64,000 bases of DNA from positions 43,840 to 107,839 of the forward strand of contig NZ_MRCB01000010.1 of NCBI RefSeq assembly GCF_001904635.1. The letters are read 5' to 3'. Position 1 is the stretch's first letter. Each line of letters begins with the position of its first letter. Positions 6,600 to 43,881 of the stretch are shown in pieces. The notes beneath the pieces were generated by a model. The model was not told the DNA's origin. It saw nothing but the letters and a program-made list of their open reading frames with translations, and searched no databases. The position numbers and the translations under genes are program-made. This stretch comes from Hydrococcus rivularis NIES-593 (lineage in GTDB: Bacteria > Cyanobacteriota > Cyanobacteriia > Cyanobacteriales > Microcystaceae).

Positions 6600-7373
6600 A
6601 TGGGATTATTCGATCGCCTTAGCCGAGTTGTCCGAGCTAATCTTAACGATATGGTAAGCAAGGCTGAAGATCCAGAAAAAGTTCTGGAACAAGCCGTTAT
6701 CGATATGCAAGAGGACTTGGTGCAGCTACGCCAAGCCGTTGCTAGGGCAATTGCGGAGCAGAAACGTACCGAGCAAAGGTACAACCAAGACCTAGGAGAA
6801 GCCAACAAGTGGGACCAACGGGCGAGACTCGCTCTTTCTAAAGGAGACGAGAACCTAGCTCGCGAAGCTCTGATGCGCAAAAAATCCCATATGGATACGG
6901 CAACCGTTCTCAAACAGCAACTCGAGGGGCAAGTCGCTCAAGTCGATAGCCTCAGAAAGAATTTGGTGGCTCTAGAAAGCAAGATTTCTGAAGCCAAAAC
7001 CAAGAAAAATATGCTTCAGGCACGGGCTAGAGCGGCTAAAGCCAACGAAGAACTGCAAAAGACTCTGGGCAATATCGATATCAACAGTGCCACGGGAGCC
7101 TTCGAGCGCATGGAGACCAAAGTGCTAGAAATGGAAGCTCGCTCTCAGGCATTTGGGGAATTGAGCGGTTATGGTATAGAACAACAGTTCGCTCAGTTAG
7201 AAGCGGGCAGCGACGTAGACGACGAACTGGCAATGCTCAAAGCTCAGATGATAGAAGGGTCGAAACCTCCAGAAGCCTTACCTCAAGCTTCAGAAACTAA
7301 ATCGTCTTCTGCCTCCGACTCGGTTGTCGATGCCGAGCTAGAAGAACTGCGCTCGAAGCTCAAAGATGTATAG
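6600..7373 (+). CDS. vipp1: PspA/IM30 family membrane-associated protein (Vipp1)
   Basis: A 257-residue, almost entirely helical protein of the PspA/IM30 (ESCRT-III-like) family. Residues 1-25 form the amphipathic membrane-binding helix (M-G-L-F-D-R-L-S-R-V-V-R-A-N-L-N-D), followed by the long coiled-coil hairpin to about residue 150 and shorter helices to 215. After a disordered serine/proline linker, a conserved helix (V-V-D-A-E-L-E-E-L-R-S-K-L-K) ends the protein. That C-terminal extension separates Vipp1, which is required for thylakoid maintenance, from bacterial PspA. It stands alone between accA and a thioredoxin gene. A second PspA elsewhere in the genome cannot be excluded. Confidence 0.92.
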   Translation: MGLFDRLSRVVRANLNDMVSKAEDPEKVLEQAVIDMQEDLVQLRQAVARAIAEQKRTEQRYNQDLGEANKWDQRARLALSKGDENLAREALMRKKSHMDTATVLKQQLEGQVAQVDSLRKNLVALESKISEAKTKKNMLQARARAAKANEELQKTLGNIDINSATGAFERMETKVLEMEARSQAFGELSGYGIEQQFAQLEAGSDVDDELAMLKAQMIEGSKPPEALPQASETKSSSASDSVVDAELEELRSKLKDV

Positions 7374-7505
7374 AGACTAAGGAGTAGGAAATGGGGAAAC
7401 GATAGCGCTTTCCCGTTACCTGCCCCTTATTTTTCATTTTTTTGAGAAGCGAGAACGGCTAGCTGAGATAATTAATAATCGAGCACAAAAGAACCAATAA
7501 CTGAT

Positions 7506-7832
7506 ATGGGTAGTGTCCTAGAAATCACAGATACTGAATTCGAGAAAGAAGTATTTAGCGAAGACAAACCCGTTCTCGTCTATTTTTGGGCGAGTTGGTG
7601 TGGTCCTTGCCGCCTAGTCTCGCCGTCAATCGATTGGGTTGCCAATACCTACAGCGATCGCTTAAAAGTCGTTAAACTAGAGGTAGATGCTAATCCAGAT
7701 GCAGTTGCTAAATGCAAGGTCGAAGGCGTTCCTGCCCTCAGACTTTTCAAAGACAAAGAACTTGTGAAATCGCACGAAGGCGCGATCGGCAAACAGCAAC
7801 TCCAGACATTGGTGGATGGTTGTCTGAATTAA
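7506..7832 (+). CDS. Thioredoxin
   Basis: A 108-residue thioredoxin-fold protein with the active site W-C-G-P-C at residues 31-35 and the cis-proline motif G-V-P-A-L-R-L-F near 75. It reduces protein disulfides, and in cyanobacteria it can be fed by ferredoxin-thioredoxin reductase or NADPH-thioredoxin reductase. The sequence departs from classical m-type thioredoxin: L-V-S-P-S-I-D-W replaces the usual I-A-P-x-x-x-x-x, so it may be one of the less studied cyanobacterial classes. An aminotransferase follows after 86 bases of simple repeat (TTATTGGTTATTAG type). Confidence 0.9.
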   Translation: MGSVLEITDTEFEKEVFSEDKPVLVYFWASWCGPCRLVSPSIDWVANTYSDRLKVVKLEVDANPDAVAKCKVEGVPALRLFKDKELVKSHEGAIGKQQLQTLVDGCLN

Positions 7833-7918
7833 GTTATTGGTTATTAGTTATTGGTTAGTAGAGTTTTGCCCTAACTAATAACTACCAACAACTAACGATT
7901 AACCAACATCTCACAAAA

Positions 7919-9094
7919 ATGAAATTCGCCGAACGGTTAAAAGCCATACAAACCAACGTGTTTGCCGATATGGATCGGGCGAAGGCAAAGGCGAGGGCAG
8001 CAGGAAAAGAAATTATAGACTTGTCCCTGGGTTCGTCCGACTTGCCCGCTTCAGACCATGTTATTGCCGCGATCGAACAGTCGCTGCACGATCCCAGCAC
8101 TCACGGCTATTTGCTCTATCACGGAACGCAAGCGTTTCGAGAAGCCGTGGCTCGCTGGTATACTAACCGATTTGGCATTCCCGTCGATCCGGCAACAGAA
8201 GTTCTTTCCCTGATTGGCTCCCAAGAAGGAACGGCGCATTTGCCCCTAGCGCTGCTCGATCCGGGAGATTTTGCCCTACTCCTCGATCCCGGCTATCCTT
8301 CTCATGCAGGCGGCGTTTATCTCGCTGGCGGACAGATTTACCCGATGCCGCTATGGGCAGAAAATCAATTTTTACCCGTCCTCGAAGACGTTCCTACACC
8401 AGTTCTCGCACAAGCTCGCATGATGGTGCTGAGCTATCCCCACAATCCTACCAGCGCGATCGCGCCTTTGTCTTTTTTCGAGCAAGCGGTCGATTTCTGT
8501 CGCCAGCATAACCTCGTCCTAGTCCACGATTTCCCCTACGTCGATATCTTTTTTGACCAGACGAATCCTCCCCCGTCGATTTTGCAAGCCGATCCTCATA
8601 AAGAAGTTTCTATAGAATTTTTTACCTTCTCCAAGTCTTACAATATGGGCGGGTTTCGCATCGGTTACGCGATTGGCAACCCTCAGCTCATTTTGGCACT
8701 CAGACAAATCAAAGCCGTCGTCGATTTTAATCAATATCGAGGCATTTTACAGGGAGCGATCGCAGCTTTAGAAGGTTCTCAAGCATCGGTCAAAGAAACC
8801 GTTGCCACCTTCCAAAAACGAAGAGATGCTTTCATTGGTGCCCTGCATCGCATTGGCTGGCAAGTCCCTACACCCAAAGCTACCATGTATATCTGGGCAA
8901 AATTACCCGAACCCTGGCAGAATAACTCTGTCGAATTTTGTACCCGATTAGTCGCTGCCACTGGAGTAGCGGTTTCTCCCGGTTCGGGATTTGGAAAATG
9001 CGGCGAAGGTTACGTTCGTTTTGCCCTCGTACAAGAACCAGAAATTTTAGAAATCGCAGTCGAAAAAATAGCCGGATTTTTACAAAGAGAGTAG
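7919..9094 (+). CDS. Class I/II PLP-dependent aminotransferase (LL-DAP/aspartate aminotransferase type)
   Basis: A 391-residue fold-type-I aminotransferase. The PLP lysine is K239 in F-S-K-S-Y-N-M-G-G-F-R-I-G-Y; other landmarks are L-S-L-G-S-S-D-L-P (substrate loop, about 36-44), Y-P-H-N-P-T-S-A (about 169) and the C-terminal G-x-G-F-G-x-x-G-x-G-Y-V-R-F-A-L arginine motif. The closest recognised group is the DapL/AlaC-like branch often annotated as LL-diaminopimelate aminotransferase, but aspartate or alanine aminotransferase specificity cannot be ruled out from sequence. It is probably monocistronic. The 252-bp gap that follows holds no recognisable gene. Confidence 0.85.
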   Translation: MKFAERLKAIQTNVFADMDRAKAKARAAGKEIIDLSLGSSDLPASDHVIAAIEQSLHDPSTHGYLLYHGTQAFREAVARWYTNRFGIPVDPATEVLSLIGSQEGTAHLPLALLDPGDFALLLDPGYPSHAGGVYLAGGQIYPMPLWAENQFLPVLEDVPTPVLAQARMMVLSYPHNPTSAIAPLSFFEQAVDFCRQHNLVLVHDFPYVDIFFDQTNPPPSILQADPHKEVSIEFFTFSKSYNMGGFRIGYAIGNPQLILALRQIKAVVDFNQYRGILQGAIAALEGSQASVKETVATFQKRRDAFIGALHRIGWQVPTPKATMYIWAKLPEPWQNNSVEFCTRLVAATGVAVSPGSGFGKCGEGYVRFALVQEPEILEIAVEKIAGFLQRE

Positions 9095-9346
9095 ATAATT
9101 GGTTGGGAGAAAGTTATTCTTTGGCATCAGACAAAGAGTAGTCTCTCTAAGGTGATTGACCGTAATGCTAAGCGATTGACTGTCAGCCGTCCGCGATCGT
9201 CTTCACCAATTCTGGTAAGGTACATAGTAAGTTTTTGCTGAAATAACGAGTTTGGCTACTAAAATACCTACATAAACCTCCATAAACCTCAAAGAATATA
9301 TTTACTTTTGCTATAAAAGACAAAGCGGAGTTGGACGAGAATAGTT

Positions 9347-11071
9347 ATGTCTTCCCCCTCGATAATCGGAACCACATCCAGCAAGATATTTAATGTCAAG
9401 AGTCTTTTTATTCTTGCCTCTATAGGGATTCATGCTTTTGTTCTAGGAGTAGGATTGCCAATCTTCCCAAATACCTGGCAAAAAGACAAATCAACGAACC
9501 CGCGAGAAGTGGGATTAATAGAATTAAACCCCGCCGAGCAAAGCCGTTTGCCGAATCTCGATCGGCCCTCCTTAGAAGACATACCGCAATATCCCAATCC
9601 ATCTTCTCTCAATGGCTCCTTTTTCGACTCATCTTCTCTGCCTTCTCTGCCACCATCTTATCCCAGCACGAGCAATCTTCCTTCTCTGCCGCCTCCTCCC
9701 GATACCATAGCGCTTGGCAATAACTTACCCGTCGTCGTTCCTCCGCAACAGTCAATACCAGCCTTGCCGTCTTTGCCGAGAGCATTGCCCTCACCGAGTA
9801 CATTGCCCACTTTACCCTCCCAACCACCTAACTTCCAATATCCTCCCACCTATCCCTCCAATACCTCGACATCGACACCGATTCAGCCCCCTCCAATTAA
9901 CGAACTCAGAACTCAAAGACCCGATTTCGGCGAACTCAGACCGCCAATTCCGGCTGATGAATTGATTAATAGGAGAGATTCTGTCGTTACTAGAAGCGGT
10001 ACGCCAACGGACAATCCTGCTGAAACCTCTCAACAGGCAATGGTTAATGGCAATGGAGGACAAACCAATGCCGCAGTCAATGATAGAGCAGCCCTGCAAG
10101 AGAGACGCATCAAACAATTAGTTGCTGAAAACATCCGAGGGGCAGAGAGTCTCATCGCGGATAAAGAAAATACGACCGACGAAGAAGCTAGGGAAAATGA
10201 GGTGAACTGGAGAGTCAGGGTAAAAGTCGCGCAACCGACAGAGATTACCCTTGAAGGAACGTATCCGAAAGCAGCTTGTATGAGAAAGCTAGAAGGGACG
10301 ACCGTTTATGGCGTAATGGTCAATTCCCAAGGAAGAGTGGCAAGTTCTCCGTACCGTCCCTATTTAATCAGAAGCGCGGGCTATCCCGTTCTAAATCAGC
10401 AGGCACTCAATGAGATTAAAGAGCGCAGTTTCACCAATCAAACCGGACAAACGCAACCTTACCGAGTAGTCGTGAACTATAAATACGATCCAAAGGTATG
10501 TCCGTCTTTAGCTGTAGCCCCACCAGAGTCTACCGAGAATAAACCGACTGGAGAACCGTCGGCAACGCAAAAACCCACCCCACCAGCTACCCCCGGAAAA
10601 GCACCAGAAGCGACTGGTGCAACCACCACGCCCGCACCCGAACCAGCAACCGGAGAAACGACGCCACCGACGCGCAATACCTGGCAACAGGTGCCACAAG
10701 AGACTGAGGCGACTACTACACCCGCACCCAAACCAGCCCCAGCAGAGACGACACCACCGACGCGCAATAGTTGGCGGCAAGTTCCGCAGGAGTCTGAGGC
10801 AACTACCACGCCCACTCAGTCTAAGCCACAACAGGAAAGCCTCAGCCCTGCGCTAACGGCTCCTCGGAAAACTCCAGAAGCGAATGAGACAGAAACATCG
10901 ATCAAGCCCAAGCCACAATGGGAACCTGCTCCTGCATCTGCAAGCTTTAGAAAGAACCCAGAATCTCGCCCTCTCGGTACGGTCGCTCCTCGGAAACTTC
11001 AAGAAGATTCTAATAATTCTCGCGAAACCTCTTCGGACGAGCAAAAGCAATCAACGGAAGATAACGATTGA
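9347..11071 (+). CDS. TonB-like energy-transducing protein with C-terminal Pro/Thr-rich extension
   Basis: A 574-residue protein. Residues about 15-40 form one membrane anchor containing a histidine (I-G-I-H-A-F-V-L-G-V-G), as in TonB. A proline-rich spacer follows (about 60-215). Residues about 290-385 look like a TonB-C fold: Y-P-K-A-A-C-M-R-K-L-E-G-T-T-V-Y-G-V-M-V-N-S-Q-G-R-V, then S-x-G-Y-P-V-L-N-Q-Q-A-L. TonB normally ends here, but this protein continues for about 190 residues of Pro/Thr/Glu-rich sequence containing a 30-residue near-repeat (about 10620-10800). ExbB/ExbD genes are not nearby. The role is inferred: transmission of proton-motive force to outer-membrane receptors or a structural envelope link. 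Confidence 0.7.
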   Translation: MSSPSIIGTTSSKIFNVKSLFILASIGIHAFVLGVGLPIFPNTWQKDKSTNPREVGLIELNPAEQSRLPNLDRPSLEDIPQYPNPSSLNGSFFDSSSLPSLPPSYPSTSNLPSLPPPPDTIALGNNLPVVVPPQQSIPALPSLPRALPSPSTLPTLPSQPPNFQYPPTYPSNTSTSTPIQPPPINELRTQRPDFGELRPPIPADELINRRDSVVTRSGTPTDNPAETSQQAMVNGNGGQTNAAVNDRAALQERRIKQLVAENIRGAESLIADKENTTDEEARENEVNWRVRVKVAQPTEITLEGTYPKAACMRKLEGTTVYGVMVNSQGRVASSPYRPYLIRSAGYPVLNQQALNEIKERSFTNQTGQTQPYRVVVNYKYDPKVCPSLAVAPPESTENKPTGEPSATQKPTPPATPGKAPEATGATTTPAPEPATGETTPPTRNTWQQVPQETEATTTPAPKPAPAETTPPTRNSWRQVPQESEATTTPTQSKPQQESLSPALTAPRKTPEANETETSIKPKPQWEPAPASASFRKNPESRPLGTVAPRKLQEDSNNSRETSSDEQKQSTEDND

Positions 11072-11076
11072 TTATT

Positions 11077-11110
11077 AGAAAATACAAGAGAATTTTCTCT
11101 TTCTTTTTTT
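11077..11110 (+). terminator. Probable terminator after the TonB-like gene
   Basis: AGAAAAT (11077-11083) pairs with ATTTTCT (11092-11098), and the stem is followed by a T-rich run (CTTTCTTTTTTT). It lies 5 bases after the stop codon. Confidence 0.5.
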
Positions 11111-11177
11111 ACCAAAGAAATGCGATCGCTTCTCATCTTTTCTTATTTTTATTATAAAGAGCGATCGCGCTAAAGAA

Positions 11178-12164
11178 CTAAAGCAATCTTTTCTGTTTAA
11201 TCTCTTTTTCTGTAATTAAAATCATCTCGTTAAGACTAAAAGTTGTAATATTGATGCAGGTTCTATTAATAGAAATCTTATATCTCTTTTCTAGAAGACG
11301 TAATATATGCGTAATATCAGTTACTGTTAAATTTAAAGATAGTAATGGAGCATCTCGATTTAACTCTTGAATTCCATAATTATTTTTCAACAACTCTAGA
11401 AGATAAATCTCAAGTTCATCTGGACTAACAAAACTGCTTTTGGAACTTTCTTCGTTCTCTTTTATACTTTTGATCTTTCTAGCAGGCACACCTCCCCATA
11501 TTTCATCAGGGGGAATAATCGTACCAGGCATAACAACAGATTTATTTTGCACAATCGCTCTGTCGCCTATTCTAACATTAGCCCAAACTGTAGCACCTTC
11601 ACCAATCAAAACGTTATTGCCTATTTTCACTTCACCTAAAAAAGTCGTAGAACCATCACCAGAATAATGACCGAGAACAAGACAGCCCCACCCAAGCAAG
11701 CTATTTTTTCCAATTGATACTAAATAAACGTCTTGTAAAGAATCAGGACTTGTGATTAGTGCGCTACTGTCTATCTTAGTTCCACTAATTTTATAAAAGA
11801 GATAACCTGGAAAAGGAAAGATCAATAGCCATCGTGCAGGTGTTCGTCTTACAAAAGTATTAAGAGCAATTAAGGTTTGATATTTAAGTGCATCCTTTTG
11901 AGTTTCAATCTTGCCTAATCTTGGCTTAGGAAGAAGTCTTGTTATAATAGCGCTAAGAAATAAGATCGTTAGAGGATAAATATATAATCCAAGAAGAACT
12001 ACTATAGTTGCTATCACTATATTACTTTCTTGAAGCGATTTCCTAAATAAAGTAACGGGAATGACTAATGAAGTAAACTGGATAAATAATTCAAGGAAAA
12101 GATTGATAGGAAACCCCAAAACATAAAGACTATTCATGCTTTTTTTATTTTTAGTCTTTGTCAT
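11178..12164 (-). CDS. Membrane-anchored left-handed-beta-helix acyltransferase with ACP-like C-terminal domain
   Basis: A 328-residue protein in three parts. Residues about 15-85 hold two hydrophobic segments. Residues about 130-235 are a hexapeptide-repeat (LbH) acyltransferase-like domain: repeated I/V-G-x-x-x-x-I/L units, I-G-N-N-V-L-I-G-E-G-A-T-V-W-A-N-V-R-I-G-D-R-A-I-V, then W-G-G-V-P-A-R-K-I typical of these enzymes. Residues about 248-320 resemble an acyl carrier protein (helix, D-x-P-L-L-S-L, L-L-E-K-R-Y-K-I-S-I), but the serine that would carry phosphopantetheine is not at the expected place. The first two parts recall the membrane acetyltransferase-like modules of Pls-type synthetases (inference). 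It is AT-rich and grouped on the minus strand with two glycosyltransferases. Confidence 0.7.
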   Translation of the reverse strand: MTKTKNKKSMNSLYVLGFPINLFLELFIQFTSLVIPVTLFRKSLQESNIVIATIVVLLGLYIYPLTILFLSAIITRLLPKPRLGKIETQKDALKYQTLIALNTFVRRTPARWLLIFPFPGYLFYKISGTKIDSSALITSPDSLQDVYLVSIGKNSLLGWGCLVLGHYSGDGSTTFLGEVKIGNNVLIGEGATVWANVRIGDRAIVQNKSVVMPGTIIPPDEIWGGVPARKIKSIKENEESSKSSFVSPDELEIYLLELLKNNYGIQELNRDAPLLSLNLTVTDITHILRLLEKRYKISINRTCINITTFSLNEMILITEKEIKQKRLL

Positions 12165-12204
12165 GATGTTACCCCACTATTCAGCTAAAGTAGCTTAATT
12201 AAAC

Positions 12205-13854
12205 TCATTCTAATTTCCAAAGAAAAAGATCGCTTTTCCAAGGATTTATTTTACTTCCATCGAAAACTAAATTGGTCTTAAATTTTTGTTCTTTTTCAAG
12301 TCTTTCTCGCAAGATTTCAGAGGGATTAAGCAAGAAAAGATCGCTGAAGGAATTAGAAATTGAAGGAATTTTAGTTAAATCCTCTATCTTAGATATTAAT
12401 TGAAATTTGACTTTTGGATCTAAAACATGACTAAGTGATAAAATATTAATATAGTGACTGCCTCCAGAGTCGCTAATAACTAAGGGGGATTGAGTTTGAT
12501 TAATAATCCTTGCTATAGGGATATTGTCTATATTGAAATATTTATTCCACCATAAATTACTTTGAGAACTAATTGTACAAGATATAACTCCACATGAAAT
12601 AAGAGCAAGCATAATAATTTTCCCTATCTGTTGTTGCCGAAAACTATTAGATACAGCACTAATTTTAATAGCTAATAAATAAGCGACAGCTAGCAGTATA
12701 CACATATAGTTAGGTATTTGGAATCTTGGTATCACCGCTCTAATGCCACCTATAAACAAATCTGGCAAGAGAAAAATTAGGCTATTTACTGCAATCAAAG
12801 AAACGATAAACAACCAAACTCGTTTAGGGCTTTTTAAGCAGAGAAAATAAATTGAATAGCCAACTAAAAATAAAATCGATAAGAAGAGTGGTAAACTAAT
12901 TATTCCCAGGATTACATCTATAGGTTGATAGGTATTTGGAAGTGCTTGCCAAAGAAGCTTATTAGGCACGTCAAAAAAAACGCGGATGATATTTGATAGA
13001 AAACCAACAATTACGAATACATAAGGTATTTTTCTTAAAGAAGCCCATTCAGTTGCACTATAACTTGCATAAAAGTAATTAACAATTACATATATCCAAG
13101 GTGCAAAAGTTAGCAGTCCAACAATAGAGGCAATCAGATAAGCACTTAAGGTTTTACTCAATCGGATGCCTTGCGTCCCAACTACGTAAATCCCATGTCC
13201 AATGGCAACCAATCCAGATAAGACAGTAGTATAAAATGCTAATGATAAGGTAAGTGAATAAAATACCCAACTAAATATAGTTTTGACGCGAATGGCTCGC
13301 AGCAATGCAGCACTTGTTAGCGGTATAATTACTGTCCATAAACTGTATAACCGTGCTTCTTGAGCATAGAGCATAAAAAATGGCGAGACAGCCATAAGTG
13401 CAATGGCAATCCAAGCTACGAGAGGCAACCCAAATAGTTCTATACATAGCCAATAAAGACAAGGAAATACTAACAGACTAATGACAGCAGATAGGCTTCT
13501 AATTCCTGTTATGGAATCGCCAAACCACTGTACCCAAGAGCGTAGCATTACATAGTAGAGGGGAGGTAGCTGAGGCTCCTCAATAGCTAATCCTTTGATA
13601 GTGTCAGCTAAAGTCTTTTCAGGATTCAGGTGTTGATACCTTTGCAAATCTTTGAGACTAATTACTTTACCGTTAAAGATTTGTTGCCTAATCTCTTGCT
13701 CCGTGTAGCCAGAAATTCGTAGAGAGGTAGCAGCTTCTTCAATCGAGTAAACTTTGCCATCAAGGTTAGCAAAGCGAAAAAACACACCTAATACTAGCAG
13801 AATAATAATTAAAAAACGTAACCAGTTTGGGGGAAGTCTCAAATTTTGATTCAT
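12205..13854 (-). CDS. Polytopic GT39/ArnT-type glycosyltransferase
   Basis: A 549-residue integral membrane protein with about ten to twelve hydrophobic segments. The N-terminal R-F-A-N-L-D-G-K-V-Y-S-I-E-E-A (about residues 27-41) corresponds to the first periplasmic loop of GT-C enzymes, where an acidic residue is catalytic. L-P-P-L-Y-Y-V-M-L-R-S-W-V, G-I-R-S-L-S-A and S-P-F-F-M-L-Y-A-Q-E-A-R-L-Y-S-L are classic motifs of the GT39-like glycosyltransferases that use polyprenyl-phosphate sugars. The acceptor is unknown. It lies 40 bases upstream of the acyltransferase and 23 bases downstream of a GT1-type gene, so the three are probably an operon for decorating a glycolipid or cell-surface glycan. 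It is visibly AT-rich. Confidence 0.85.
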   Translation of the reverse strand: MNQNLRLPPNWLRFLIIILLVLGVFFRFANLDGKVYSIEEAATSLRISGYTEQEIRQQIFNGKVISLKDLQRYQHLNPEKTLADTIKGLAIEEPQLPPLYYVMLRSWVQWFGDSITGIRSLSAVISLLVFPCLYWLCIELFGLPLVAWIAIALMAVSPFFMLYAQEARLYSLWTVIIPLTSAALLRAIRVKTIFSWVFYSLTLSLAFYTTVLSGLVAIGHGIYVVGTQGIRLSKTLSAYLIASIVGLLTFAPWIYVIVNYFYASYSATEWASLRKIPYVFVIVGFLSNIIRVFFDVPNKLLWQALPNTYQPIDVILGIISLPLFLSILFLVGYSIYFLCLKSPKRVWLFIVSLIAVNSLIFLLPDLFIGGIRAVIPRFQIPNYMCILLAVAYLLAIKISAVSNSFRQQQIGKIIMLALISCGVISCTISSQSNLWWNKYFNIDNIPIARIINQTQSPLVISDSGGSHYINILSLSHVLDPKVKFQLISKIEDLTKIPSISNSFSDLFLLNPSEILRERLEKEQKFKTNLVFDGSKINPWKSDLFLWKLE

Positions 13855-13877
13855 CTTAATGCTTTTTAATCCATCAG

Positions 13878-15137
13878 TTAAGTTGGAAAGGCTCCGTTCA
13901 AAAGTGCCTCAGTACGGCTTAAAATGGTTTCTCGCGCGTCGAAAGAAACCAGTTTTTTTTGAAATGCTTTTATAGAAGCATGAATTTCTGAATCTTCGAG
14001 TAAACTCAAAGTGATTCTTACAAGCTTATCTATATTGAGTCGGGAAGGACGGAAAAAATATCCTAACTTGTTTCGGGCGATCGCTTCTGCATAAAAGTGC
14101 TGGTTGGCATGGGCTGGTAGGGCAATCAGTGGAACTCCACAAGACAAGGCTTGGTAAGTAGTCATTGCACCACCGGGATAGACCATAAGATTAATGTTAG
14201 GAAGGAGTTTGCTGTCGTTGACAAAATCGAAAACAAATAGATTTTTGGATTCTACTGGCATCTCAAAAGAGCGCTTGCCACGAGAGACGATCGCTTGCAG
14301 ATCGCGTTCTAGGAGTTTCTCAACGTACGATTTGAGGAAGTCTGTGGGCAGAGACTCCTGGGTGCCTAGCGACACGTAGATTGTTTTTTTGTTAGGATCG
14401 AGGCGGAAAAGTTCATGGGGCAACGGCTCTGGGCGTTCCCATAACAAGGCTCCAGTGTAAAGATCGCCGGGACGTAAAGGCTCAATTGGAACTAGATCGG
14501 GGAGGTCGCAGAGCAAGCAAATATCTCCCTGACTTGCATAGTCAAAAAATGTTGGCAGTGGCTCTAAACCATAAGCGATAGATGCCTCTCGCAGAGAAAT
14601 AGAAATTTTTTGAATTGTTTGCCTATTGATGACTTCACCCAGTCTAGTTCGCTGGGAGATAAAATCAAGCAGCCACAGAGGAGCAGCAAGAGTTTTGGCA
14701 AAGGGATCTGGCACGGTTCTATCGGAAACAAAATTCGGATGACAAGTCGCATCAGTCATCCCAACAGAAGGAATGCCATATTTTTTAGCTAACTGAAGGG
14801 CAGTAAACCGAAATTCAGAGACAATTAAGCAGGGTTGAAAGCGCTTGATTAGCAGATCGTCCTGAGTAAAATAGGCGATCAGATCTTCTGTTGTATACAT
14901 CATGCCGCCTTGACGCAAGCGCTGGTAAATAGCAGTTGGCTCGGCAATTTCGATGCTGGCAGTTTTAAATCCCTCAGCAGCAAACAAAGAAGATGATTTA
15001 TCCGGACAGGCAATTACAATATCGTGATTTAATGACTTCAGCCACTTGGCAACTATTAAGGATCGGGCAATATGTCCATAACTGATCCCTTCACAAAAGA
15101 ACAGTATGGGATTAATAGCTCGGAAAACAGCGTCCAT
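13878..15137 (-). CDS. GT1-type (MGT/YjiC-like) glycosyltransferase
   Basis: A 419-residue soluble GT-B glycosyltransferase. The N-terminal half has the acceptor-domain pattern (G-H-I-A-R-S-L-I-V-A-K-W-L near residue 21). The C-terminal half has I-Y-V-S-L-G-T-Q-E-S and the nucleotide-sugar motif Y-P-G-G-A-M-T-T-Y-Q-A-L-S-C-G-V-P-L-I-A-L-P near residue 340. In the usual motif the first residues read H-G-G; here Y-P-G-G replaces it, so the histidine that contacts the diphosphate is changed. The probable role is transfer of a UDP- or dTDP-sugar to a lipid or secondary metabolite. It is the first gene of the three-gene minus-strand group. Confidence 0.85.
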   Translation of the reverse strand: MDAVFRAINPILFFCEGISYGHIARSLIVAKWLKSLNHDIVIACPDKSSSLFAAEGFKTASIEIAEPTAIYQRLRQGGMMYTTEDLIAYFTQDDLLIKRFQPCLIVSEFRFTALQLAKKYGIPSVGMTDATCHPNFVSDRTVPDPFAKTLAAPLWLLDFISQRTRLGEVINRQTIQKISISLREASIAYGLEPLPTFFDYASQGDICLLCDLPDLVPIEPLRPGDLYTGALLWERPEPLPHELFRLDPNKKTIYVSLGTQESLPTDFLKSYVEKLLERDLQAIVSRGKRSFEMPVESKNLFVFDFVNDSKLLPNINLMVYPGGAMTTYQALSCGVPLIALPAHANQHFYAEAIARNKLGYFFRPSRLNIDKLVRITLSLLEDSEIHASIKAFQKKLVSFDARETILSRTEALLNGAFPT

Positions 15138-15190
15138 TCAATAGATTTACGTAAAAAATCTTAAATAAGTGCCAAAAACGCTAAAAACCC

Positions 15191-15214
15191 AAGTATAGGT
15201 AACCACCTATACTT
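15191..15214 (-). terminator. Hairpin downstream of the PEP-CTERM gene
   Basis: AAGTATAGGT and ACCTATACTT form a perfect 10-bp stem with loop AACC. On the minus strand it is followed by GGGTTTTTAG, so it can terminate the gene at 15291-15995 before the glycosyltransferase operon starts. Confidence 0.6.
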
Positions 15215-15290
15215 GAGTACTGTTGGCAACAATGAAAGTCAAGTAGTTTAGTCGGTCGGTCTGGGATTAGACCAAATTTTACTGTTCTTC

Positions 15291-15995
15291 CTATTTCATT
15301 TGCTTGAAAGTTTTCTTGCGCTTAAGCAGCGAACCAGCTCCTAAAGCTACACCGAGTAGACCAACAACACCCGTAGGTTCGGGAACTTGTGCTGCTGGAA
15401 TTGTAAAGGTGCCTGAGTAGGATGCATTTCCTATTACAACGCCAGAATCGTCGATTTGATCTAGGCTACTTAAAACGGTAGTTGAGGAGATAGAAACAGG
15501 GAGTTGTCCTGTGATGAAGGCAAAATTGGTGGGAGTGCGATCGCCACCATTCACAAAAGCCCCTTCAAACTCAAAAATATTGGGTCCAGTGTCTTGCCCC
15601 GTCCGAGTAAACGCTGTGAAATTGTATGTAGTGCCATCGGCAAATTTAAGTAATGTGGTTTCAGAAACATTGACTTTTACACCTGTTGGAAAAGGTGCGG
15701 GACTAAACAAATCAAAAATCTGGGCTCTACCACTTAAGGAAGATAAGCCGCCTTGACCTGTGACTTCGACTTCTCCAGGACTACCAGGACTTGGAAGGGA
15801 ATTATTTGGGCCGGGGTTGCCCACTGTAAAGTCAATGGCGTTTTGCGTGTAAAAGGCGTTCCCAAATCTTTCGCTACTTACATCTAGCTGTCCCGGACCA
15901 ACAAAAATAGCTGCTTCCGCTGGGATGGCACTGACTAACACTCCTGCTGCCACTAAAGGAAGACCGGATAAAAGAGCAATATGTTTTACTTCCAT
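15291..15995 (-). CDS. PEP-CTERM sorting-domain protein
   Basis: A 234-residue secreted protein. Residues 1-29 are a signal peptide (hydrophobic core L-L-S-G-L-P-L-V-A-A-G-V-L-V, cleavage near A-E-A-A). The C-terminus has the PEP-CTERM tripartite signal: V-P-E-P-T-G-V, the hydrophobic V-G-L-L-G-V-A-L-G-A-G-S-L-L, then K-R-K-K-T-F-K. By family knowledge such proteins are processed by an exosortase and delivered to the surface or extracellular matrix. The middle (30-205) is a beta-rich, glycine/serine/threonine-rich domain of unknown function without cysteine. Its exosortase is not in the window. Confidence 0.85.
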   Translation of the reverse strand: MEVKHIALLSGLPLVAAGVLVSAIPAEAAIFVGPGQLDVSSERFGNAFYTQNAIDFTVGNPGPNNSLPSPGSPGEVEVTGQGGLSSLSGRAQIFDLFSPAPFPTGVKVNVSETTLLKFADGTTYNFTAFTRTGQDTGPNIFEFEGAFVNGGDRTPTNFAFITGQLPVSISSTTVLSSLDQIDDSGVVIGNASYSGTFTIPAAQVPEPTGVVGLLGVALGAGSLLKRKKTFKQMK

Positions 15996-16317
15996 GAATA
16001 CTTATCCTCCAAGGTAAATAATTACCTTACCTACGTTAAATCACTGACATCAATAGAATAATCACGGTTAAGTGAAAAAGCAAGTCTTGTCAAGCAACTT
16101 CATAAACTCTTTAAATATAAAATAAATTTTTCAAAAACTCCTCAAAGGCTATTAAGTCAATTGTGTTAGCGAGTATTAACCATTGCTCATTGCTGAAAAA
16201 ACAAGGACGAATGATGCAAAATATTACGGACTTTTGTTATGGAAGAATTATAGTTTTGTATTGAGTCAGCGATCGCCATTATTATTCAGTTACGTAAAAA
16301 AGTGCGATCGCGCCTAC
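15996..16317. other. 322-bp intergenic gap, promoter side of the PEP-CTERM gene
   Basis: The gap contains two HIP1-like sites, an AT-rich stretch (16100-16140) and the ribosome binding region of the PEP-CTERM gene (AGGAT near 16010 on the minus strand). No coding frame or structured RNA is convincing here. Confidence 0.4.
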
Positions 16318-17541
16318 TTATCTCACCCGATCGCTAAACAGTTTAAAGTAAGCAGAGACGCAGAACTCCTTGATAGGAAAAGCAATAAACGTCAAAGGAT
16401 TGATTGTCACGATGATATTGCGAACGTCCCGTTGAGCGAGATTAACAATCTGCTTCGCCACCCAATCGCCGGACATCACGCCAAAAGGATTGAGATCGCT
16501 TTTAAACGGTCCCAGAATCAGCTTGCGCACGATACAGGGAGCATCCAAGCGACGCAGAGTTATCAAGTCTCCTAGCGATCGCTTGCTCAGTTCGTAGAGA
16601 GGACTAAAAGCAGGACTGACTTCTGCTTCTGAGGTATTAATCCAAACTTCTTTGCGAGCGATGTCTTCGTTAGTGCGGACGGTTTTAAAAAAGAGTTCCA
16701 TCAATCGCCAACCTGAAAAGGTATTGATTTCGTAAGATTGGGCAACAGCTTCCTGGGTTCTCTTCCCAAAGCCGTTAATGCCGTGGTTGATAATCAGTAT
16801 ATCTATCGACTCTAGTAGTTCTGCTAGCTCGGATTCTTTGCCAACTTGCCACTTAAGGGTTTTTATTGGCGTATTTTCCCCGTTGATATCGAGAGTTACC
16901 GTTCGTTCCTTGGAAGTCAGGGCAATGACCTTTGCACCCCTCAGATGAAGGTGTTTTAAGAGCGATCGCCCTAACGTTCCCGATGCTCCGGTTACAGCGA
17001 TGGTTTTTCCCTTGAGGGAGAGGGCAGTCCCCATGAGCTTATCGACTATAGTAAACGTACCGCTATAATAAGCCTTTTGATTGTCAAAATGATGTCGCCA
17101 GTGGTAGGGCCGATTGACCAACCAGCGAGCGGGTAAGCGGGTAAAAGCTCCCGGACGATGGGTGACATCGGTTAATTCGTCGGCGTAGGGAATACCACTT
17201 CCTCGCGCGATCGCGCCGAATAAAAAACTTAGCGTATAAAGAGAACCCATCCAAGCCGTCCATTGATGGGGCAAATCCAACGCTGTTGCGATCGCCCAAG
17301 GCAGAAGACTGAATAACAGCATAACTAAAGCTTCTGGTACGTCATTGTACCAATGGGCTTGTCGGTATATCTGCTCGCTAACAGCCGATAAATCCGGGCG
17401 AAACACGCGATGATGCCAAACATGCAGGCGATACAATAGCTGCCAATGATGAGAAAGAGCGTGGTAAAAGTCTCGAACGATTTCCACCCAGAAAACCGAA
17501 CCAACTGCCAAAGTTGTCGCCGTTATGATTGCCGTCGTCAT
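16318..17541 (-). CDS. Fatty-acid-hydroxylase (sterol desaturase)/short-chain dehydrogenase fusion
   Basis: A 407-residue bifunctional protein. Residues 1-165 form the membrane-bound di-iron hydroxylase-like part with histidine clusters: F-Y-H-A-L-S-H-H (about 26-33), H-V-W-H-H-R-V-F (about 40-47), D-V-T-H-R-P-G-A and P-Y-H-W-R-H-H-F (about 145-152). Residues about 178-407 form an SDR domain that opens with T-G-A-S-G-T-L-G-R-S-L (Rossmann motif) and has I-N-H-G-I-N-G. The usual Y-x-x-x-K appears as Y-E-L-S-K. Cyanobacterial genomes carry this fusion under the name bifunctional sterol desaturase/short chain dehydrogenase, with no established substrate. It is divergent from mgdA across a 268-bp spacer. 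Confidence 0.85.
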   Translation of the reverse strand: MTTAIITATTLAVGSVFWVEIVRDFYHALSHHWQLLYRLHVWHHRVFRPDLSAVSEQIYRQAHWYNDVPEALVMLLFSLLPWAIATALDLPHQWTAWMGSLYTLSFLFGAIARGSGIPYADELTDVTHRPGAFTRLPARWLVNRPYHWRHHFDNQKAYYSGTFTIVDKLMGTALSLKGKTIAVTGASGTLGRSLLKHLHLRGAKVIALTSKERTVTLDINGENTPIKTLKWQVGKESELAELLESIDILIINHGINGFGKRTQEAVAQSYEINTFSGWRLMELFFKTVRTNEDIARKEVWINTSEAEVSPAFSPLYELSKRSLGDLITLRRLDAPCIVRKLILGPFKSDLNPFGVMSGDWVAKQIVNLAQRDVRNIIVTINPLTFIAFPIKEFCVSAYFKLFSDRVR

Positions 17542-17809
17542 AAAGTAATTAATCGAGCAGAGCGAAATTTAAATTTTAATCAAGAAATTTAAAGCTAGCG
17601 TTTTTTCGAGCGAAAGTGGCAACACTAAAGATTGCAATAGCCATTATACGAGCAATTCAGACCTGCTCGAGCCAAAGGAAATTCACAAATATCAAAGAAA
17701 GTTAATAATCTTGGATAAAATAGACCCAAGATAACCCTAAGCGCAGCTAGTGTAGCAAAAGTCTGCCAAATTGTAATTAAAGCCAAACATCCAACTGCCA
17801 AAATCGATT

Positions 17810-19240
17810 ATGCCAGAAAAATATTGGTCAGAAAATGAATCCGAGCAAGAGTTAGATCCCATTGGTTCCCTCTTATCCGAATGGGTCGATCCAGAAGACG
17901 AAGAGGAAGAATTTAGAAGCGATTTTTTTAAGGGATTGTCGGGGCGCAGAAAGAAAGCCGCTTTCGTGTTGATGGCGGTTTGGAGTACGACGATCGCGCT
18001 TCACCTGGTTACCTGGGGAACCTGGGTAATCATGGGCATGACTGGACTGATGGTTATTCACGGACTGCGATTGGTGTCAGCCAAAGCAGAACCTACGCCA
18101 GACTCATTATCGGATGAAGCGTTAGCCAATGCGCCTTCTGTTTCCTTGCTAGTTGCTGCCAAAAACGAAGAATCGGTGATAGGCAATTTGGTGACTATGC
18201 TATGCAATCTAGACTATCCAACCGATAAATATGAAGTTTGGGTGATTGACGACCACAGCAGCGACAAAACGCCGCAAATTTTAGAAAAACTGGCACGACA
18301 ATATCCTCAACTGCGGGTCGTTCGCCGTCCTGCGGGCGCGGGTGGCGGTAAATCGGGAGCGCTCAATCAAGTTTTACCCCAGACTCGGGGAGAGATTATC
18401 GGGGTATTCGATGCAGATGCAAAAGTCACGCCAGACTTGCTCAGACGGGTGCTGCCAATATTTGAAGCACAAGAGATAGGCGCAGTCCAAGTACGCAAAG
18501 CGATCGCCAACAGCGCCGTCAATTTCTGGACGCGGGGACAAATGACAGAAATGGCGCTAGATAGCTATTATCAGCAGCAGCGCATCGCAGTCGGAGGCAT
18601 CGGCGAACTGCGGGGAAACGGTCAATTTGCTCGTCGTAGCGCCCTACAACGGTGCGGTGGTTGGAACGAACAGACCATCACCGACGATCTCGATTTAACG
18701 ATTCGCCTGCACTTGGATGATTGGAAAATTGGCTTTTTACTCGATCCGGCCGTAGAAGAAGAAGGCGTTACCAGCGCGATCGCTCTGTGGCACCAGCGCA
18801 ACCGTTGGGCAGAGGGCGGATATCAGCGCTATCTCGACTATTGGCGATTGATTCTCAGCCAGCGGATGGGATTTAAGAAAAAGCTAGATCTGCTTTACTT
18901 CGCATTGACGCAATATATTCTCCCAACCGCAGCCGTACCGGACTTTGTGATGGCGATCGCTCGCCATCGCTTGCCAATGCTGAGTCCGTTAACGGGCTTT
19001 ACGATTTCTCTTGCATTTTGGGGAATGTTGGTAGGATTGCGTCGCACTCGCAGCGAGGAAAAATTAAGCTTTTTCAATCTACCGACCATTACCTGGCAAA
19101 CCCTGCGGGGCACGATTTACATGCTCCATTGGCTGGCGATTATCCCCAGCATAACAGCTCGCATGTCCGTGCGACCAAAGCGGCTCAAATGGGTGAAAAC
19201 AGTTCACGAAGGAACCAGTGAAGAAAGCTTTGAGTTCTAG
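17810..19240 (+). CDS. mgdA: Beta-monoglucosyldiacylglycerol synthase (GT2)
   Basis: A 476-residue membrane GT2 enzyme that transfers glucose from UDP-glucose to diacylglycerol, the first step of galactolipid synthesis in cyanobacteria. The acidic N-terminal segment (D-P-E-D-E-E-E-E-F-R-S-D-F-F-K-G-L-S-G-R-R) and two membrane helices (about 50-90) match the Sll1377-type enzyme. GT-A motifs are present: V-A-A-K-N-E-E-S (about 117), D-D-H-S-S-D (about 146), D-A-D-A-K-V (about 204), D-D-L-D-L-T-I-R-L (about 288) and Q-R-N-R-W-A-E-G-G (about 325). Hydrophobic helices follow. Length agrees with the family (about 475-480). Confidence 0.93.
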   Translation: MPEKYWSENESEQELDPIGSLLSEWVDPEDEEEEFRSDFFKGLSGRRKKAAFVLMAVWSTTIALHLVTWGTWVIMGMTGLMVIHGLRLVSAKAEPTPDSLSDEALANAPSVSLLVAAKNEESVIGNLVTMLCNLDYPTDKYEVWVIDDHSSDKTPQILEKLARQYPQLRVVRRPAGAGGGKSGALNQVLPQTRGEIIGVFDADAKVTPDLLRRVLPIFEAQEIGAVQVRKAIANSAVNFWTRGQMTEMALDSYYQQQRIAVGGIGELRGNGQFARRSALQRCGGWNEQTITDDLDLTIRLHLDDWKIGFLLDPAVEEEGVTSAIALWHQRNRWAEGGYQRYLDYWRLILSQRMGFKKKLDLLYFALTQYILPTAAVPDFVMAIARHRLPMLSPLTGFTISLAFWGMLVGLRRTRSEEKLSFFNLPTITWQTLRGTIYMLHWLAIIPSITARMSVRPKRLKWVKTVHEGTSEESFEF

Positions 19241-38112: not shown

Positions 38113-39183
38113 TTAACTGATTGAAACAGCTTCACCACCTGCCAAAACCAGTGGAAAGTGATGGGTATTCGGCGCGTGCATTGCTCTCAAACCCAAATTG
38201 GCGCGATTAATTAAGTCGGCATCGGTATAAATTGGATGACCGTGGCTGTCGAGAATGGATTGGTTGAAATTGAAACCGTTGAGATTGAACGACATCGTGC
38301 TAATACCCAGTGCAGCACACCAGATACCTATCGTGGGCAATGCAGCGAGCAAAAAGTGGATGGCACGGTGATTGCGCATGGCCAGACTGGGGATGAGAAG
38401 GCGACCCAGATAGCCAACATGTCCAGCAAGCAGATTATAGGTTACTTCTTTTTGACCGAACTTATAACCAGCATTTATCGATTCCTCATTTGTAGTTTCT
38501 CGAATCAAACTGGATGTGACCAAAGAACCATGCGTAGCAGCTAACAATGCGCCGCCAAATATGCCAGCAACTCCTAACATGTGCAGCGGATGCATCAAGA
38601 TATTGTGATTGGCTTGGAATGCCAACATAAAGTGGAACGTACCGCTGATGCCCAGAGGCATTCCTTCTGCAAAAGCCCCTTGACCGATGGGATAAACCAG
38701 GAATACGGCTGTGGCGGCTGCGGCAGGTGCCGAGAATGCCACGGAAATCCAAGGACGCATCCCCAAGCGATAGCTGAGTTCCCACAGACGACCCAGATAG
38801 CACCAAATGCCAATCAGGAAATGAAGAATAATTAGTTGATAGGGACCGCCATTATAAAGCCACTCGTCCATGGAAGCCGCGTCCCAAATCGGATAGAAAT
38901 GTAAGCCAATCGCAGCAGAAGTGGGAACGACGGCAGCAGTAATAAGATTGTTACCGCCCAATAGAGAACCGATTATGGGTTCCCGAATGCCGTCCATATC
39001 CACTGGGGGAGCGACGATAAAGGCAATGATAAAACAAATGCTGGCAGCGAGAAGGGTAGGAATCATCAAAACACCAAACCAACCAATGTAGATGCGATTG
39101 TCGGTACTCGTTACCCAATTGCAAAATCCTTCCCAAATCCTGCCAATGTCTAATTCGCGGCGACGTTGAATAACGCTGGTCAT
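38113..39183 (-). CDS. psbA: Divergent photosystem II D1 protein (rogue/sentinel type)
   Basis: A 356-residue D1 homologue with all five helices. In Synechocystis PsbA2 numbering it keeps H118, Y161 (YZ), H190, H198, H215, H252, H272, H332, H337 and A344. It lacks manganese-cluster ligands: D170 is E (A-F-A-E-G-M-P-L-G), E189 is N (F-Q-A-N-H-N-I-L), E333 is A and D342 is V ([15 protein letters not shown]). Pheophytin contacts are changed (130 is L, Y147 is F), and the QB pocket has S264 to A plus one inserted residue after H252. W131 is kept, so it does not look like chlorophyll f synthase. The second ATG (39183) has better spacing from AGGAG; the first (39189) adds M-A. It is monocistronic with its own terminator. 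Confidence 0.93.
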
Positions 39184-39423
39184 AGCCATTAGCTCCTACT
39201 ATGAAAACTACAAGAAGATTTTTGGAAATTTCAACTAAAAAACTCTTGGAAAATTCTAGGATTTTTTATCTTAATCTACATCTATTGTAAAATGAGCATT
39301 AAAGAGATAATAGCCATATTATTGCTTTTTGAATTAATTTTTATCAATTGGTAAAAGTTTTTAAAAAAGTCAACCAATCTAAATTTTTTTATAAAAAACT
39401 TAATATCTAGAGTTTTTTTTTCG

Positions 39424-40302
39424 TTAAATTCTACCTTTTAAAGCTTCTAACTCTTCTCGTAGCGATCGCGGTTGATAACCTATAGCAAAAGCTTTAGAGC
39501 TATCTAAAGAAGTATCGGGAGAACGAGGAGCAGACATCGGTACGTCTTTTTGTTGACAAGTTTTGATGTTTTCTTGCGGAAGTTCCAATATTTCTGCCAA
39601 TAAGCGACCGAATTGATAGCGAGATACTCTTTCTTTCCCGCCTAAATGAAGCAGTCCTACAACTTTTTTTTCTATGGCTAATAATAATCCATTAGTTGCC
39701 GTCGAACCGCTGATAGGCGTTCTAAACTCATCGGTAAATAAACTGAGTTCTTTTCCGGCTTTGAGAATCTCGATAAAAGGTTGAATAAAACTACCGGCCA
39801 CCGGAGAAGCAACGCCAAACATTAACGGCATTCGACAAATGGCAGTCTTAGGATAGCATTCTAACATTCCCCGTTCGGCGAGGACTTTTTGCTCGCCGTA
39901 ATAGCTAATTGGAGAAACGGGATCGGTTTCTCGATAGGGAGGATTTAGGCCGTTAAAAACTAGGTCAGTGGAAGTAAAAACGCAAGGAATAGCGCGATCG
40001 CTACACAAGCGGGCAATATTTAGGGAAGCCGTAACATTAATGGCATAAGATTCATCGGGATGCTCTTGACAAAAATTTGGCTTGGATTGAGCGGCGGTAT
40101 GAATGACGGCTACTGGTTGAATGTCTGTAAATAACTGTTTGAGGGCATGAAAATCTGTTAGCTCGACCTTGAGAAGCGTAACGCCGGGAATTTCAACCGC
40201 ATGGGCCAAATAAGTCCCGCAAACGTCCCATTTTTGTCGGGCTTGCTGACAAAGATTCCAGCCCAAAAAACCGCTAGCTCCTGTGACTAAAAGTTTTTGC
40301 AT
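39424..40302 (-). CDS. RmlD-like NAD(P)-dependent sugar reductase (extended SDR)
   Basis: A 292-residue Rossmann protein: L-L-V-T-G-A-S-G-F-L-G-W-N (4-16), V-I-H-T-A-A-Q-S-K-P, a S-T-D-L-V-F-N-G segment and Y-Y-G-E-Q-K (catalytic Y-x-x-x-K). The S-T-D-x-V-F-x-G pattern is typical of dTDP-4-dehydrorhamnose reductases and their relatives, although no other rhamnose genes are near. It could equally be a general sugar-nucleotide reductase. The gene ends 234 bp from the D1 start, and the gap between is AT-rich promoter sequence. Confidence 0.85.
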   Translation of the reverse strand: MQKLLVTGASGFLGWNLCQQARQKWDVCGTYLAHAVEIPGVTLLKVELTDFHALKQLFTDIQPVAVIHTAAQSKPNFCQEHPDESYAINVTASLNIARLCSDRAIPCVFTSTDLVFNGLNPPYRETDPVSPISYYGEQKVLAERGMLECYPKTAICRMPLMFGVASPVAGSFIQPFIEILKAGKELSLFTDEFRTPISGSTATNGLLLAIEKKVVGLLHLGGKERVSRYQFGRLLAEILELPQENIKTCQQKDVPMSAPRSPDTSLDSSKAFAIGYQPRSLREELEALKGRI

Positions 40303-42574: not shown

Positions 42575-43881
42575 GTGGCTTTATCTCGACGAAATTTTTT
42601 AACTTTAGCGGGTGCAGGTGCTGCTACTTTTGCCTTAGCTTCTCTTCTGAGAAATTATTATGTAAGGGCAACTACAGGTCAATCTCTATTGGCTAAAGGG
42701 TTTGGCGAACTGATTCCCGATCCCAATGGGATTTTAGATCTTCCAAAAGGATTTCAATATCGCATTCTTTCGCAAACGGGAAAGCTGATGAGCGATGGTA
42801 ATCCCGTGCCAACCAGTCATGATGGCATGGCAGCTTTTCCTGGCAAAAATGGAGCAACAATTTTAGTCCGCAATCACGAACTCGATCCCGGACAAACTCC
42901 CGCAGTTATGACAGAAAATACTAATAAATACGATCGGCGATCGAGTGGGGGAACGACGACTTTGATTGTGGATAAAGATCGTCAAACCATTAAAGAATTT
43001 GTGTCTCTTGCTGGTACGAATCGTAACTGTTCTGGGGGTGCAACGCCTTGGGGGTCGTGGATTAGTTGTGAAGAAGACGATTTAGCGCCACAATTTTACG
43101 ATCTCAGCAATTCGGCAACAGAATCTATCAAACACGGCTATAATTTTGAGGTTTTTGCTAATGGGAAAATTGCCGACCCATTCCTCTTGTCGCAATGGGA
43201 CGTTTTCGACACGAAGCGATCGCAGTCGATCCAAAAACGGGCTATATTTATCAAACCGAAGATCGAGAAGATAGCTGTATTTATCGCTTTCGTCCTAAGC
43301 AAAATGGTAACTTAAAAGCAGGGGGAATTTTAGAAGCTTTAGTTATCAAAAATATGCCTGCGGTAAATACTAGCCTCGATTTTCCGATGGGCAAACCTAA
43401 AAAAGTAGAGTGGGTCAAAATTGAAGAGGTAGATCCCAAAGAAGATACGCTGCGCTATGAAGCACAATCGAAAGGAGCAGCTATTTTTAAGAGAGGGGAA
43501 GGAATTTGTTTTGGAAATGGCGAAATTTATTGGACTTGTACCAACGGAGGAAAGGCAGGAGCAGGGCAAATTTTTCGCTACAATCTTGCTTCTAAAACGG
43601 TAGAATTATTTGTTGAATCGCCAGGAATGGAAGTCTTGGATTATCCCGATAATTTAATCCTGACTCCTTTCGGTCATTTGATGGTTTGTGAAGATGGATT
43701 GGGCGAACAATTCTTAGTAGGAATTACCCCCGAAGGGGAATACTATCATTTTGCTCGCAATGCTTTTAATAATAGCGAATTTGCCGGAATTTGTTTTGCT
43801 CCCGACGGGAAAACTATGTTTGTTAATATTTACGATCCTGGAATTACTCTGGCAATTTGGGGGGAGTGGAATCAATCATAA
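42575..43881 (+). pseudogene. PhoX/DUF839-type phosphatase with a frameshift
   Basis: Two overlapping frames encode one DUF839 protein. The first (from GTG at 42575) has a twin-arginine signal (L-S-R-R-N-F-L-T-L-A-G-A-G), then V-P-T-S-H-D-G-M-A-A-F, L-V-R-N-H-E, S-S-G-G-T-T-T-L and G-G-A-T-P-W-G-S-W-I-S-C-E-E. The second continues from about 43183 with I-P-L-V-A-M-G-R-F-R-H-E-A-I-A-V-D-P-K-T-G-Y-I-Y-Q-T-E-D and runs to 43881. A single missing base near 43177-43182 (G-C-C-G-A-C-C-C-A-T-T) explains the break. Joined, the product would be about 435 residues, a Tat-exported, calcium-dependent phosphoesterase by family analogy. A sequencing error cannot be excluded. Confidence 0.8.

Follow-up and report, generated by a model that had tools for sequence, protein, structure and literature searches.

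The locus and its D1 protein

The DNA analyzed here, referred to as the window, is a stretch of 64,000 nt from Hydrococcus rivularis NIES-593 (assembly GCF_001904635.1, contig NZ_MRCB01000010.1, forward-strand positions 43,840–107,839). A psbA gene lies on its minus strand. The reading frame is uninterrupted and comprises 358 codons from the first ATG, or 356 from the second ATG at 39183, which had been taken as the start in the preliminary description of the locus. The encoded protein scores 610 bits against the NCBIfam psbA model, the cut-off of which is 596.05. In the list below, codons 170, 189, 333, and 342 were read directly from the DNA as well as from an alignment with other D1 proteins, and the remaining codons were taken from the alignment, their places being counted off from the start codon. 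Residues are labeled as Mn ligands or as contacts of pheophytin, QB, bicarbonate, and iron according to their usual assignments in PSII.

38113–39189, minus strand: psbA by NCBIfam, 358 aa, assigned to the rogue/sentinel class (Group 2) by alignment and tree
38785–38787, minus strand: codon for L130, pheophytin contact
38734–38736, minus strand: codon for F147, pheophytin contact, F in some standard D1s too
38692–38694, minus strand: codon for Y161 (YZ), kept
38665–38667, minus strand: codon for E170, standard D170
38608–38610, minus strand: codon for N189, standard E189
38605–38607, minus strand: codon for H190, kept
38443–38445, minus strand: codon for V244, standard E244, bicarbonate contact
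38416–38418, minus strand: codon for the V inserted after H252
38389–38391, minus strand: codon for P261, standard Q
38380–38382, minus strand: codon for A264, standard S264, QB contact
38176–38178, minus strand: codon for H332, kept
38173–38175, minus strand: codon for A333, standard E333
38161–38163, minus strand: codon for H337, kept
38146–38148, minus strand: codon for V342, standard D342
38140–38142, minus strand: codon for A344, kept, with eight residues beyond it

Three of the six D1 ligands (positions 170, 189, 332, 333, 342, and 344) are lost in this protein, one is exchanged from D to E, and two are kept; the full standard set D170/E189/H332/E333/D342/A344 is not present. All the replacements named in the preliminary description (D170E, E189N, E333A, and D342V) were found again, together with the retention of Y161, H190, H332, H337, and A344, and so were L130, F147, A264, and the single inserted residue, a valine between H252 and G253. 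Its statement that most of the ligands are gone is slightly strong, with three lost and one conservatively exchanged. H198, H252, and both non-heme iron ligands, H215 and H272, are also present. Additional substitutions are E244 to V, F255 to L, and M214 to T.

The gene is flanked by sulfotransferase-like and rmlD-like genes and by HtrA. No nif, hox, or sqr gene lies beside it in the window, and no functional tie to its own flanking genes was seen. The rogue genes of G002 (a complete genome from this genus), of G012, and of one Prochloraceae genome also have an rmlD-like gene nearby. Upstream of the gene (39190–39600), the sequences of the window and of G002 agree almost base for base, apart from about 60 bases that the window lacks. 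At 42575–43881 on the plus strand, a phosphatase-like gene appears as two overlapping ORFs in different frames, and in G002 it is a single open frame.

Placement among D1 proteins

The insertion after H252 is present in 63 of 80 loci, the best of 151 in a scan of genome contigs, and in eight rows from the host genome and its relatives. These 71 rows, defined by that column, are the rogue set within an alignment of 115 rows; some of them are near-copies of each other, and L012 and L048 appear to represent one gene. The other 44 rows are 42 real standard D1s, the host ChlF-like protein, and one hand-typed reference sequence. For the tree, a row was retained if it filled at least 280 columns and was no more than 94% identical to one already kept, leaving 81 rows, or 80 without D2 (56 rogue, 22 standard, and 2 ChlF-like). 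Thirteen trait columns were excluded: the insertion and 12 positions belonging to the ligands or to the pheophytin and QB sites.

In the tree without D2, all 56 rogue rows, the window protein among them, lie on one side of a branch with 100/100 support, and the standard and ChlF-like rows lie on the other; this tree has no root and does not give the order of the D1 groups. The window protein is placed in a set of six rows with support of 98/80. In a quick tree with D2, its six-row fork contains G012, G015, and three Crocosphaera, and the rogue rows do not form one group (two changes). Rooting by D2 was rejected: its branch has a length of 10 and attaches among the rogue rows, breaking the rogue group, and this split is taken as a long-branch effect.

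Assignment of the window D1 to the rogue/sentinel class (Group 2), and not to ChlF or standard D1, has three supports at the level of sequence: the tree, the pattern of residues, and the insertion shared throughout the class. The preliminary description had proposed this class, and the D1 phylogeny that it suggested as a check puts the protein inside the rogue clade and not among the standard D1s. Identification of the clade with Cardona's Group 2 rests on its pattern of residues and on its having Crocosphaera watsonii WH 8501 as a member, the tree having been built without 51142 PsbA4 and Gloeobacter kilaueensis. The partial loss of the D1 ligands of Mn4CaO5 that marks Group 2 is found in the window protein (N189, A333, V342, and E170, with H332 and A344 kept); its E at 170 also agrees with an excerpt of Cardona (2016, PMC4773611), by which Group 2 carries E170 or D170. 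Excerpts of other papers define atypical D1s by the absence of some ligands (PMC6492235) and attribute a rogue D1 to Pleurocapsa sp. PCC 7327 (PMC5061849).

The host genome (5.14 Mb in 67 contigs) has seven reaction-centre genes. Standard D1s lie on contigs C1 and C52, and a full-ligand D1 with A80, L158, and A286, which we take to be marks of Group 3, lies on C14. Contig C9 encodes a D2, a ChlF-like protein, and a D1 of the far-red type together with proteins that by eye resemble CP43, CP47, and ApcE, which makes this a far-red cluster; the far-red photoacclimation cluster is located at 7203–18583 of locus L130 on that contig. An ordinary D2 was not found in the host assembly, probably owing to an assembly gap. 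The far-red cluster might suggest that the window gene is a second chlorophyll f synthase (super-rogue, Group 1). This is hardly credible, since a ChlF-like protein with Q-D at 127–128, presumably the mark of ChlF, is already encoded in the cluster, whereas the window protein has L-G there and is encoded on contig C2, and since the 100/100 branch separates rogue from ChlF-like rows.

G002 holds the counterpart of the window gene at 99% identity. Because the two copies agree at 19 of 19 tabulated sites and share the insertion, sequencing error is unlikely to be the source of the changed residues. Purifying selection acts on the window gene, as seen from dN of 0.003 and dS of 0.113 between the two copies (dN/dS 0.023). 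That it is a nonfunctional copy in decay is very improbable. The median dN/dS of the class is about twice that of standard D1 (0.105 over 135 rogue pairs versus 0.046 over 146 standard pairs, for pairs with dS between 0.1 and 1.2), and two drafts of the same genus, G001 and G003, yield nothing rogue-like (best matches 70% and 68%), as decay might predict; however, the ORF is intact, dN/dS against the same-genus copy is low, and YZ, H190, and H337 are conserved across the clade.

Donor and acceptor sides across the class

None of the 71 rogue rows retains D342, three retain E333, and four retain E189. A carboxylate stands at 170 in 68 (39 E and 29 D), H332 is present in 69, H198 in 70, and H337, Y161, H190, and H118 in all. 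Position 344 is A in 38 and S in 31. Two Crocosphaera rogue D1s (L048, 6001–7050; L057, 6001–7038) terminate at A344 and would need no C-terminal processing.

The near-constant carboxylate at 170, H332, and H337 could form a one-metal site at which rogue PSII oxidizes Mn(II) or another metal, with the electrons passing via YZ. Loss of D342 in all rogue rows and of E333 and E189 in nearly all would fit such a site, and oxidation of a metal (Mn) by a rogue-like D1 has already been proposed (PMC8047818, in excerpt). This reading is nevertheless judged decidedly improbable: the altered QB region would impede net electron output, and in the three remaining rows residue 170 is A, V, or T.

Class switches were defined as positions at which one residue is shared by more than 90% of the 22 standard rows but by less than 15% of the 56 rogue rows. 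They number 26 among the 233 columns with standard-row agreement, and 15 of them fall within 242–278, the QB region, which has 33 of the 233 columns (Fisher p 2e-8, the bounds having been picked after the list of switches was known). The ligand stretches are not significantly enriched (160–190, 3 of 26, p 0.75; 325–344, 4 of 26, p 0.09). S264 is retained in 2 and E244 in 4 of the 71 rogue rows. Several replacements are near-fixed: P261 occurs in 56, P334 in 54, and L255 in 53 of the 56 rogue rows, and all three are found in the window protein.

The suggestion in the preliminary description that the resulting PSII is electron-transfer inactive is supported only in part. Remodeling of the QB region is indeed class-wide. 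On the other hand, Q130 occurs in 20 of the 71 rogue rows (L in 40), the charge-separation residues H118, H198, and the Y161-H190 pair are kept, the window protein retains the iron ligands H215 and H272, and the near-fixed new residues look like redesign as much as decay. F147, which had been read as a sign of lost pheophytin tuning, did not survive comparison: it is found in 56 of the 71 rogue rows, yet also in 7 of the 22 dereplicated standard rows, including two full-ligand D1s of the host genome, and it was rejected both as a class mark and as a sign of loss.

A further reading is that rogue PSII works as a light-driven enzyme like ChlF, in which P680+/YZ would oxidize a substrate and the QB pocket would take another acceptor or ligand. 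The invariant H118, Y161, and H190, the nearly invariant H198, the fixed P261 and near-fixed L255, and the class median dN/dS of 0.105 are all consistent with it, and an unidentified enzymatic function has been suggested in print on the grounds that PsbA4 is scarce (PMC9640542, in excerpt). Yet no substrate is known, and some relatives have lost a non-heme iron ligand, at 215 in 3 of 71 rows (Q in L012 and L048, Y in L110) and at 272 in 6 of 71 (Y, N, S, or G in L081, L082, L084, L094, L079, and L015), which fits a loss of function at the acceptor side. An enzyme of this kind seems unlikely, though it retains some weight. An AlphaFold2 model (31-row alignment) had a mean pLDDT of 46.3 and was set aside. 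The 53 distinct sequences of solved structures matched at E ≤1e-100 are, by name, all standard D1/PsbA, and none is named rogue.

Existing explanations of rogue D1s, in the excerpts at hand, center on missing features of the oxygen-evolving site. The present comparison finds the class-defining changes, including the insertion and near-fixed residues, concentrated at the quinone-acceptor side. The purpose of rogue D1 thereby becomes testable as plastoquinone reduction, herbicide binding, or binding of another ligand, and the apparent redesign of the acceptor side across the class is the point that merits further attention. The pattern was not found in a literature search that did not cover Murray 2012, Cardona 2015, Wegener 2015, and Sheridan 2020, and no claim of novelty is made.

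Genomic context and proposed role

Co-occurrence was assessed in 388 evenly drawn genomes of the taxonomic class with a rogue profile (A1) of 109 columns. A rogue D1 is present in 48 of them (best E ≤4.5e-54; 3.8e-49 for the next genome), and nifH exceeds the cut-off in 115. The two coincide more often than expected, with nifH in 31 of the 48 rogue genomes versus 84 of the 340 others (Fisher p 9e-8, ignoring descent), and still do so when family f24, whose 100 genomes have neither gene, is left out (p 2e-4, ignoring descent). Nitrogen fixation as the whole explanation was rejected, as 17 of the 48 have no nifH over the cut-off. The host itself has two nifH over the cut-off, one HoxH, and two genes for sulfide:quinone reductase (SQR).

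An SQR match, in one case a fragment, was obtained in 28 of the 48 rogue genomes. In 14 of the 48, belonging to seven genera and five families with six from one genus, SQR lies within 12 kb of a rogue D1, the distances ranging from 1.4 to 10.8 kb; the claim of linkage rests on this count, and its chance estimate ignores shared descent. Neighbors were also compared over 52 rogue regions, which include second copies, two of them (L188 and L189) with intermediate profile scores; clusters resembling psbA or antisense readings of psbA were excluded. An SQR cluster was found in 13 regions, an ArsR-like regulator in 13, a rhodanese-like protein in 13, and a Rieske-like protein in 14 (names by eye). 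None of the four occurs in 24 control regions, which form a weak control, with 14 of the 24 loci having 6-kb flanks, most coming from other genomes, and a psbA-cluster ORF in 21 of 24.

SQR also lies on contigs with D1 genes of another type. In the host, the two are about 26 kb apart on contig C14 (30673 and 58356), the D1 being the full-ligand protein with A80, L158, and A286, and in genome G026 (C2:67009–71859) an SQR lies 2.5 kb from a D1 of the same description (L127). Metal ABC transporter-like genes (ATPase, permease, and binding protein, named by eye) are found in 4–5 of the 52 rogue regions (L182, L186, L188, and L189) and in 1–3 of the 24 controls.

HoxH is present in 30 of the 48 rogue genomes and within 12 kb of the rogue D1 in 2 of 48, so that hydrogenase linkage was rejected as a rule of the class; counted by locus, hox genes lie near the rogue gene in 6 of 70. 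In Leptolyngbya sp. Heron Island J (L083, 1335–10001), genes for HoxU, HoxY, HoxH, a protease, HypA, and HypB, the rogue psbA, and HypF follow one another, the rogue gene and the hydrogenase genes lying on one strand (names by eye). A second rogue psbA of this strain (L070) is near an SQR gene. The repeated proximity of SQR and the hydrogenase run of this one strain point past nitrogen fixation. Rogue D1 could conceivably be the core of a second, anaerobic PSII and no dead placeholder, a light-driven oxidoreductase whose QB pocket is rebuilt for a different acceptor or ligand and which works with sulfide and hydrogen metabolism; the insertion after H252, P261, L255, and the repeated chromosomal association with sulfide and hydrogen genes are the grounds for this suggestion, which is offered tentatively and at low probability.

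The reading preferred here, with a probability of about 0.72, is that rogue D1 would provide an oxygen-safe variant of PSII for dark or low-oxygen metabolism, in which plastoquinone transfer is altered. Rogue D1 would join D2, CP43, and CP47 to give a PSII with the charge-separation core and YZ-H190. With E189, E333, and D342 gone, the standard Mn4CaO5 cluster would be unable to form, and the rebuilt QB region (the insertion after H252, S264A, F255L, E244V, and Q261P) would change the transfer to plastoquinone. The cell would produce such a protein in darkness or low oxygen and so keep PSII assembled with no release of O2, allowing oxygen-sensitive metabolism to proceed. We infer an assembled PSII that would evolve no oxygen and pass electrons to plastoquinone poorly or differently.

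Support for the oxygen-safe variant comes from the single rogue clade (100/100), the ligand losses, the QB switches, the dN/dS of 0.023, the co-occurrence with nifH, the nifH, HoxH, and SQR of the host, and the SQR linkage in 14 of 48 genomes. Excerpted reports that count in the same direction are that Cyanothece 7822 synthesizes PsbA4 in darkness (PMC4320622) and that Synechocystis with 51142 PsbA4 as its sole D1 shows no photosynthesis (PMC9640542, citing earlier work). Counted against it are the 17 of 48 genomes that have no nifH over the cut-off, the position of the window gene away from nif, hox, and sqr, and near-fixed residues such as P261, which would be superfluous in a mere blank. 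Further points against it, again from excerpts of PMC9640542, are that PSII is active in the dark in Cyanothece 51142 and that deletion of psbA4 in this strain has mild effects, with slightly faster growth of the mutant without nitrate. The mild phenotype of the deletion disfavors a simple placeholder and keeps an enzymatic role under consideration. In a low-oxygen sulfidic mat, the top psbA transcripts were of type 3 and not type 2 (PMC8651085, in excerpt), which gives no help for the rogue class.

The window gene is a new member of a class already described, and a sister genome carries an almost identical copy. Its closest known counterparts are other rogue/sentinel D1s, among them PsbA4 of Cyanothece ATCC 51142 and PCC 7822 and the rogue D1 of Crocosphaera watsonii WH 8501, the last of which was compared directly. 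Analogous to the window protein, to which it is 78% identical, the rogue D1 of Crocosphaera watsonii (L048) has the insertion after H252 and has lost E189, E333, and D342. It differs in stopping at A344 and in having Q215, whereas the window protein has a short tail beyond A344 and both non-heme iron ligands. Standard D1s (Groups 3 and 4) have the family and the cofactor core in common with the window protein, at about 68%–73% identity. Unlike it, they have all ligands, S264, and E244 and no insertion in 42 of 42 real rows. ChlF (super-rogue, Group 1) resembles the window protein in missing Mn ligands while keeping YZ and H190. The host ChlF-like protein, in contrast, has Q-D at 127–128, has no insertion, has lost H332, H337, and A344, and falls outside the rogue clade.
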